From: Negativicutes bacterium UBA1444
GTDB lineage: Bacteria; Bacillota; Negativicutes; UBA1444
Length of the DNA stretch: 6,560 nt
Direction of reading: 5' to 3'
NCBI GenBank assembly: GCA_002329525.1
Contig: DCTI01000174.1
Span: forward strand, 12,561-19,120
Made by a program: the position numbers and the translations under genes. Numbering within the stretch: position 1 is the stretch's first letter; every line of letters starts with the position of its first letter. The notes under the pieces are model-generated. The model was not told the DNA's origin and did no database searches. It worked only from the letters and a program-made list of their open reading frames with translations. Of the stretch, positions 4,612 to 6,396 are shown piece by piece.

Positions 4612-6396
4612 TTGGCAATGATCGACAAAAAGAAACTCATCACGGATCGTGTGGATGAGTTGGTGAAAAAAGCGGCGCAGGCCAACAATATGATAGCGAC
4701 GGTTGAAGTACTGGACACATTCCAGAATGAAGACCTTTCGCCGGAAGATATTGAAGATGTCTACGAATTGTTGGCAAAGAAAAATATAGAGATTGTCGAT
4801 GAACTTCCCGACCCCGAGGCTCTGGAAGCAGTCGGTGCTGCGGGTTCTGAAACGGTCGTGGAAGAAGTCGACCTTGAACAGGCGATTCCGGAGGGCGTCA
4901 GTATTGACGACCCTGTTCGGATGTATCTGAAAGAGATTGGCCGTGTCTCTTTGCTTTCGGCGGTTGATGAGACGAAACTGGCGCAACGCATGGATAAAGG
5001 CAACGAGGCGCAACTTTTGCTCGACGAAATGGCCATGGATAGCGATTTTTTAGAGATGGAAAAACCTTTGTCGTTGCCGGAACGTTTGACTTTGGCCCAA
5101 ACCTTGTTGGCCAGGGAAGAATATACGGTGCGGGTGCGGCAGACCAGCGAAGTGTTCAAAATCCTGCGTGATCTTGCCGGTGCGCAGGAACGGAAAATTA
5201 CCAATGGTGTCTTTCAGGCTGCCGTTGCTGCGCTGACCCGGGAAGAAATTCGCGCCTTGCAAAATCATTTGAGTTCCGAGAGTGTAGAAATTATTGACGG
5301 TGAAAATGACGGAAGTTTGTTTATCCCGCCATCATTAGACGGGATTCCAACCCCGGCATTTTCAAATGCCGGCGATTTCACCGAATTGATTCAGGCCTTG
5401 GTGAATTTGGGCCGCCAGCAGGCTAACCTGATTACGTCCGAACAGCTGAATTTGGCGTTACGTCCGGAAGATCCACCGACTGTGAGACTTTCCGAAGGCG
5501 GCAATGTCACCAAAGCCATCCAGGGGCTAAAGGACGGAAATATCCGACTGGTTGAGGGCAGTAATCTTGCTTTGACCTATTATTTATTGCAGGGTGAATC
5601 GCAATCGTCCCCAGCTGTTGCCGGCGCTATGCAACGAATTCGCGCTACCGCCAAAACTGCCCTGGAGCAGGGCGACCGGGCAAAACGGAGTTTGTCCGAA
5701 GCTAATCTGCGGTTGGTGGTCAGTATTGCCAAACGCTATGTCGGCCGTGGAATGTTGTTTTTGGACTTGATTCAAGAAGGCAATCTCGGTCTGATTAAAG
5801 CTGTTGAAAAATTTGATTATACAAAAGGCTATAAATTCAGTACCTACGCTACCTGGTGGATTCGCCAGGCCATTACCAGAGCCATTGCCGATCAGGCGCG
5901 GACCATTCGTATTCCTGTCCACATGGTGGAAACCATCAACAAATTGATTCGGGTATCACGGCAATTGTTGCAGGAGTTGGGGCGGGAGCCTTCTCCCGAT
6001 GAGATTGCCAAGATGATGGATATTACGGTCGAACGGGTCCGCGAAATCATGAAGATTGCGCAAGAACCCGTGTCGCTGGAAACGCCGATCGGCGAAGAAG
6101 AGGATTCCCACCTCGGTGATTTCATTGAGGACGCCGATGCGCAGGCACCGGCTGATGCCGCTTCTTTCATGGTATTGAAGGAGCAGTTGGAGGAAGTCTT
6201 GGAAACGCTGACGCCGCGGGAGAAGAAGGTGTTGCGGCTGCGGTTTGGTTTGGACGATGGGCGGGCACGGACTTTGGAAGAGGTAGGCCATTTCTTCCAA
6301 GTCACCCGGGAACGCATTCGTCAGATCGAAGCGAAGGCGTTGCGCAAATTAAGGCACCCCAGCCGGAGTAAAAAGCTGAAAGATTTCCTGGAATAA
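4612..6396 (+). CDS. rpoD: Primary sigma factor (RpoD/SigA) with a large insert between regions 1.2 and 2.1
   Basis: This is the housekeeping sigma-70 subunit, which guides RNA polymerase to -10/-35 promoters. Region 1.1 spans about residues 13-64 and region 1.2 about 98-130 (DDPVRMYLKEIGRVSLL). Region 2 (about 357-440) has EANLRLVVSIAKRYVGRG, FLDLIQEGN and KFSTYATWWIRQAITRAI. Region 3 covers about 440-500. Region 4 ends the protein, with the HTH VTRERIRQIEAKAL; Arg566, Glu567 and Gln571 align with the -35-contacting residues. Regions 2-4 are close to Firmicute SigA. The protein has 594 residues against about 370 in B. subtilis; the excess is residues about 131-354, where B. subtilis has essentially no spacer. 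Proteobacterial RpoD also has a non-conserved region here, but this insert looks unlike it and seems built of region-1.1-like modules. There is no frameshift and the reading frame is continuous. The start is TTG 4612 by Shine-Dalgarno spacing. It lies 34 nt after dnaG and is probably cotranscribed with it. Confidence 0.97.
   Translation: MAMIDKKKLITDRVDELVKKAAQANNMIATVEVLDTFQNEDLSPEDIEDVYELLAKKNIEIVDELPDPEALEAVGAAGSETVVEEVDLEQAIPEGVSIDDPVRMYLKEIGRVSLLSAVDETKLAQRMDKGNEAQLLLDEMAMDSDFLEMEKPLSLPERLTLAQTLLAREEYTVRVRQTSEVFKILRDLAGAQERKITNGVFQAAVAALTREEIRALQNHLSSESVEIIDGENDGSLFIPPSLDGIPTPAFSNAGDFTELIQALVNLGRQQANLITSEQLNLALRPEDPPTVRLSEGGNVTKAIQGLKDGNIRLVEGSNLALTYYLLQGESQSSPAVAGAMQRIRATAKTALEQGDRAKRSLSEANLRLVVSIAKRYVGRGMLFLDLIQEGNLGLIKAVEKFDYTKGYKFSTYATWWIRQAITRAIADQARTIRIPVHMVETINKLIRVSRQLLQELGREPSPDEIAKMMDITVERVREIMKIAQEPVSLETPIGEEEDSHLGDFIEDADAQAPADAASFMVLKEQLEEVLETLTPREKKVLRLRFGLDDGRARTLEEVGHFFQVTRERIRQIEAKALRKLRHPSRSKKLKDFLE
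5002..5673 (+). other. Insert in the sigma factor: about 224 residues between regions 1.2 and 2.1
   Basis: Residues 131-354 separate two parts that are contiguous in B. subtilis SigA. Two stretches inside resemble region 1.1: about 178-230 (nt 5143-5301, with LTREEIRALQ and VEIIDG) and about 255-316 (nt 5374-5559, with LIQALVNLGRQQ, ITSEQL and IRLVEG). The N-terminal region 1.1 (nt 4648-4803) has LSPEDIEDVY and IEIVDE at the matching places. Between and after them are linkers rich in Ser, Pro, Gly and Ala (about 231-254 and 327-345). The repeat relation is my alignment by eye. Confidence 0.55.

Follow-up and report, generated by a model that had tools for sequence, protein, structure and literature searches.

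Region 1.1, a negatively charged domain of Group 1 sigma factors, mimics DNA within the channel of RNA polymerase, and the sigma non-conserved region (NCR) is described as variable in size and structure (accessible part of PMC4598750). A sigma-1.1-like fold is also found in the N-terminal domain (NTD) of the delta subunit, which binds between the beta' shelf and jaw, outside the channel (accessible part of PMC7749165). In cyanobacteria, sigma-70 evolution proceeded by domain gain, loss, and duplication from an ancestral r1.2-r2-r3-r4 architecture, and no duplicated region 1.1 is described in the accessible part of PMC11119718. Here, the primary sigma factor gene rpoD (sigA) of Negativicutes bacterium UBA1444 was analyzed. 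It lies in a 6,560-nt stretch of DNA (GenBank assembly GCA_002329525.1, contig DCTI01000174.1, positions 12,561 to 19,120, forward strand), referred to as the window, and its product carries two segments at the NCR site that match region 1.1 by sequence profile.

The window copies share with region 1.1 of Bacillus subtilis SigA (PDB 5MWW; PF03979) the full-length profile and the succession of helices and strands, and the first copy has this domain as its top structural match, but they differ from it in lying at the NCR instead of the N-terminus, in copy number, and in lost acidity. The NCR of Escherichia coli sigma-70 is likewise inserted between regions 1.2 and 2.1; much of the window-type NCR, however, consists of region-1.1-like modules, and the two have no detectable sequence likeness. 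The delta NTD (HARE-HTH) likewise gives a subunit of the polymerase a fold similar to sigma 1.1, which docks on the enzyme's surface (accessible part of PMC7749165), but delta is a separate gene, is still present in the window genome, and does not resemble the insert by profile. The open-licence literature, searched by title and the start of the abstract, showed nothing on multiple region-1.1 domains or on a Negativicutes NCR, subscription papers lying outside this search.

The insert and its modules

The rpoD gene (4612..6396, + strand, as are all sigma features below) encodes 594 aa from a TTG codon and was identified by RpoD models over their cut-offs and by its position downstream of dnaG. 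The NCBIfam models NF006666 and TIGR02393 gave 594.7 bits (cut-off 572) and 407.2 bits (cut-off 354), respectively. With a full-length RpoD model and an N-terminal region 1.1 both over cut-offs, the protein belongs to the Group 1 (primary) sigma factors. The Pfam layout was r1_1 at residues 12-74, r1_2 at 100-133, r2 at 363-431, r3 at 440-516, and r4 at 529-582. The canonical region 1.1 (residues 11-64; 4642..4803; PF03979, 39.3 bits, cut-off 22.5) has a net charge of −10.

The insert occupies residues 130-352 (4999..5667), the stretch skipped in matches to 370-400-residue frames of other class members, and no Pfam family reached its cut-off in it. A sequence-only reading of the window had noticed extra residues between regions 1.2 and 2.1 of the 594-residue protein, and the insert was indeed located there, at the NCR site; the motifs that it had quoted also lie at the positions it gave. 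The first extra module covers residues 179-230 (5146..5301; net charge −2) and the second, supported by hhalign and by the succession of helices and strands in the modelled insert, residues 257-315 (5380..5556; net charge about −1, counted for 257-317). The modules are flanked by two predicted long helices: residues 155-175 (5074..5136; AlphaFold2 model residues 27-47), which lead into the first copy as the first stalk helix, and residues 334-361 (5611..5694; model residues 206-233), which continue into region 2.1 as the second.

Sequence similarity of the insert to region 1.1

A profile of canonical region 1.1 was built from 142 sigma N-termini of the class, which were reduced to 85 non-redundant sequences, 80 of them long enough to be used. 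It was compared by hhalign with a profile of 47 distinct inserts of the window family and, as a control, with an alignment of regions 2-4 (first 60 rows). Two matches covered the whole length of the domain, one at residues 179-229 (probability 80%, score 32.8) and the other at residues 257-315 (36%, 25.8), whereas regions 2-4 gave 0.3% and a score of 11.9 over 13 columns only. In profile-profile comparisons with other inserts of the class, four whole-length matches to region 1.1 were obtained in Acetonema-type inserts (scores 36.6, 31.8, 24.7, and 24.4) and one in the families having a single module (27.2). The best scores of column-shuffled profiles (n = 150) were 16.8 for the window family, 20.0 for the one-module families, and 17.3 for the Acetonema type. 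When Acetonema-type relatives were added to the second copy, the match rose to 93.8% and a score of 35.8, the best of 120 shuffles reaching 17.2; the Acetonema-type rows alone gave 24.9 in this comparison, and one shuffle reached 22.9.

An iterated search was seeded with N-terminal region 1.1 only and run in rounds 0-3 with E < 1e-3 per round, nine near-identical copies of the window protein being excluded. Acetonema longum modules were the first to be taken up (round 0), followed by the loci L034 and L035 (round 1), near relatives of the window protein (round 2), and the first copy of the window (round 3), while none of 730 shuffled sequences was matched at E < 0.1 in any of the four rounds. 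The search did not take up the second copy of the window or most copies of family f16. The view of the sequence-only reading that two stretches of the insert follow region 1.1 is thus upheld for both by profile-profile matches above shuffled controls, and for the first additionally by the iterated search and the predicted fold.

Several results weigh against this assignment. PF03979, which had been proposed as a check, had no match when residues 125-354 were searched alone, even at E 10, and the best Pfam family for this stretch was SF-assemblin (E 0.14, below its cut-off). When the canonical profile was compared with single sequences, the match in the window was limited to 27 residues of the second copy (7.0 bits), about level with the best of 1820 shuffled inserts (7.6 bits), and the first copy was absent among the 45 matches listed. 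Relatives reached 8.7 bits, and higher values were obtained for the Acetonema-type locus L032 (25.8 and 16.3 bits), L034 (15.9), L033 (13.6), and L035 (13.0). Since the single-sequence matches are weak, the assignment relies instead on profiles of the family, on relatives, and on the predicted fold. Most of the 60 additional loci (L032-L091) had been selected for long frames and are not a random sample. On the supporting side, PF03979 reported three stretches in the A. longum RpoD at E up to 1, though one in its relative P0062. Annotation overlooks the extra copies, as curated Pfam calls none in the window insert.

Predicted structure

The insert was modelled with AlphaFold2 without templates (predicted local distance difference test, pLDDT, 86.5; predicted template modelling score, pTM, 0.82), and the order helix-strand-helix-helix-strand was predicted in both modules. 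For the first copy, the top 2 of 998 chains were sigma-1.1 of SigA, 9a58 giving a root-mean-square deviation of 2.3 Å over 56 residues; by predicted structure, residues 179-230 thus adopt the sigma-1.1 fold. The second copy modelled alone was of low confidence (pLDDT 58, pTM 0.35), the order of its elements being correct in the whole-insert model. Foldseek alone, run on the insert model, returned no match below E 0.4.

Net charge and a proposed role

Charges of the modules were compared as net charge only, and module 2 (counting the canonical copy as the first) was found by motif in 83 of 91 inserts. Canonical region 1.1 had a mean net charge of −8.1 over 80 rows; module 2 averaged −3.1 in a set of 56 rows and −2 in one of 27, and module 3 averaged −1.8 over 54 rows. 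Of 38 paired proteins, 36 had a canonical copy more acidic than the NCR copy. In the window RpoD, the N-terminal copy has a net charge of −10, and the extra copies, at −2 and −1, do not qualify as acidic DNA mimics.

The extra modules are, on balance, probably ancient duplicates of region 1.1 that, held on a predicted stalk, would bind RNA polymerase in the vicinity of sigma region 2 instead of serving as DNA-mimic plugs. Docking is favoured over plugging because of the low acidity of the NCR copies and the surface docking of the delta NTD. The modules would be carried above region 2 on the stalk of two helices predicted by the model, would dock on the polymerase close to that region, and, as we propose, may tune promoter opening and escape.

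Alternatively, the extra copies could work as region 1.1 itself does, as further acidic DNA mimics that keep free sigma from binding DNA and have to vacate the channel for opening. Both copies share the profile of region 1.1, the first also shares its predicted fold, and some f16 copies are still acidic (L036, −10; L038, L048, and L058, −7). Against this stand the mean charges given above and the retention of the canonical copy, PF03979 being listed in all 55 full-length relatives of the window sigma. With region 1.1 retained, its job is not vacant for the extra copies, and with most of the acidity lost from the NCR copies, a second DNA-mimic plug is unlikely. The idea of the sequence-only reading that the extra copies act like region 1.1 in the DNA channel is not supported.

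Distribution and sequence constraint

From 20 hand-picked rows of seven families, L091 and L060 being excluded, a profile was made that spans the first module and the helix leading into it; four of its columns are invariant (E, R, T, and E). With this profile, the first module was detected in 64 of the 380 class genomes, counting that of the window, and these belong to seven families: f1 (2/2), f16 (56/59), f24 (2/2), f21 (1/1), f28 (1/1), f29 (1/1), and f27 (1/2). The module is spread more widely than the sequence-only reading saw. In a 398-genome sample of the phylum, the same profile matched the window's genome only, with none in the 397 others (13 of the class and 384 outside it). All 67 matches fall within open frames, 288-932 residues long; for 42, contig and frame agree with those of a listed sigma match, and the remaining 25 fell outside that comparison. 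Three genomes (G088, G089, and G092) have two module matches each on different contigs and probably carry two primary-type sigma genes.

Among cultured organisms, Acetonema longum DSM 6540 (f24) has an RpoD with four NCR modules and the canonical copy, five in total, and the RpoD proteins of Acidaminococcus fermentans and A. timonensis are named relatives of an f16 insert, with ~51% identity over it. The three modules of the window protein, for which the sequence-only reading knew of no precedent, are not the highest count, as, with the canonical copy included, A. longum has five and the sigma factor of L047 six.

The length of the protein is steady: 55 of 58 relatives have 589-595 residues down to 42% insert identity, and the other three are fragments. 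Between the window and a same-genus relative, the insert has 50% protein identity and the core 98%. For the insert of this pair, the proportions of nonsynonymous (pN) and synonymous (pS) differences were 0.34 and 0.73, respectively; since synonymous sites are near saturation, no pN/pS ratio is stated. Judged from these sequence comparisons, the insert is under purifying but loose selection.

The NCR site might simply tolerate insertions, so that duplicates persist there without a function of their own. This would fit the fast divergence of the insert relative to the core, the lack of a module match in 316 of 380 class genomes, and the presence of same-site inserts unlike region 1.1 in other lineages (L073 and L083). 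The value of pN far under pS, the steady length, the four invariant columns, and the occurrence of the module in 56 of 59 f16 genomes all speak against it, and make such passive persistence quite unlikely.

Origin of the modules and N-terminal arrays

Docking modules derived from region 1.1 remain the favoured explanation, and the insert segments probably descend from the protein's own N-terminal region 1.1 by duplication, with which the profiles and a tree are compatible, short of proof. In this scenario, an early lineage of the class acquired one copy of region 1.1 at the NCR site, and both the window and the Acetonema lineages may later have gained more copies next to it.

The insert could instead be a helical domain without kinship to region 1.1, whose shape of three helices and two strands arose by convergence, the likeness of the two being superficial. 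Such convergence is very unlikely in view of the in-register whole-length matches (two in the window family and four in the Acetonema type), which scored 24.4-36.6 against null maxima of 16.8-22.9, and of the iterated hidden Markov model search without any shuffled match. The E. coli NCR likewise yielded nothing. One E. coli NCR sequence compared with four profiles gave at most 0.8% in all four comparisons, whereas E. coli region 1.1 as a positive control gave 96.9%; the proteobacterial NCR, a match to which the sequence-only reading had counted as evidence against itself, was rejected as the source.

It is extremely improbable that the modules derive from the delta NTD, despite its sigma-1.1-like fold (accessible part of PMC7749165), as a 12-row delta profile of the class gave at most 1.3% against the inserts (with low power, the same profile giving only 1.0% against canonical region 1.1), the inserts match canonical region 1.1 far better, and delta occurs in G000 and G001 as well as in the two Acetonema-type genomes, a set that includes the genome of the window. 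The insert is therefore no replacement for delta in these genomes, and HARE-HTH is supported neither as the source nor as a vanished partner whose place the insert took. Delta was not found in the four f16 genomes tested.

Region 1.1 is also multiplied at the N-terminus in some sigma factors of g65, a genus-level group of family f12. Two N-terminal copies are found in L085, L086, and L057; the extra copy of L057 gave 96.8% in the profile comparison, and that of L086 is closest to its own canonical copy. In L047 (genome G209; open reading frame 102-2993, − strand, 963 aa), five N-terminal repeats precede the canonical copy. They start at frame residues 22, 146, 260, 364, and 469, gave 93.5% as a set, and are basic (+2 to +6), the last four being 35-63% identical to each other. 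In a tree of 71 hand-picked rows, with few columns and many open forks, the extra copies of g65 cluster with N-terminal copies, and the NCR modules lie outside that cluster (98/95). The N-terminal arrays and the NCR modules therefore look like separate events, and, apart from what happened at the NCR, g65 may have multiplied region 1.1 at the N-terminus in two of its lineages.

Taken as a whole, region 1.1 in Negativicutes is likely to be a proliferating module, from which the NCR body would have arisen (one copy in the Acidaminococcus type, two in the window lineage, and four in Acetonema) and which, in two lineages of a different group, would have built up N-terminal arrays with as many as six copies. 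If so, the housekeeping sigma factor would be a platform of repeated and re-charged sigma-1.1 domains, and the origin of a sigma NCR would be traceable. The series of 1, 2, 3, 5, and 6 copies would let the role of the sigma-1.1 fold be separated from that of its negative charge, and cultured organisms with such sigma factors are at hand in A. longum and, by insert likeness, Acidaminococcus.

Not all sigma inserts are region-1.1-like: those of L083 and L084 (f35) gave 0.4%, and those of L073, L087, L090, L056, and L076 gave 2.6%. These seven inserts, 113-135 residues long and at the same NCR site, are unrelated or too diverged. In the 398-genome sample, two PF03979 domains in one protein were not seen among the matches listed, and the 14 genomes with two matches had each in separate frames; PF03979 would overlook diverged copies of region 1.1. 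Another five loci (L052, L053, L054, L080, and L082) have Lys/Ala/Glu-rich N-terminal tails of very roughly 250-380 residues ahead of region 1.1.

Conserved regions, gene start, and neighbouring genes

Region 1.2 (residues 100-133; 4909..5010) was assigned by Pfam PF00140, and regions 2, 3, and 4 (residues 353-594; 5668..6393), also assigned by Pfam, are the core compared above with the same-genus relative (98% identity). Database copies of the window RpoD have 592 aa and start at an ATG two codons past the TTG. Of the two candidate starts, TTG 4612 and ATG 4618, the former has a GGAGG-like stretch closer to the usual spacing, as judged by eye.

The dnaG-rpoD pair lies within the window, and the host genome assembly is 2.87 Mb and 73% complete. 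The single insert relative found in the collection of named genomes is the Sporomusaceae metagenome assembly SM1-B11.1, in which a dnaG-like open reading frame is likewise found upstream. The frame at window positions 1-558 resembles the end of a pyruvate phosphate dikinase or PEP synthase. It is followed by an HTH-CBS regulator and then a kinase/pyrophosphorylase (PF03618) at 577-2045. An LptA/OstA-like gene (PF03968; 2109-2600, − strand) fits the expectation for a diderm, and a tRNA truncated by the window end (6495-6560; Rfam RF00005) has, by eye, the anticodon GTT (Asn).
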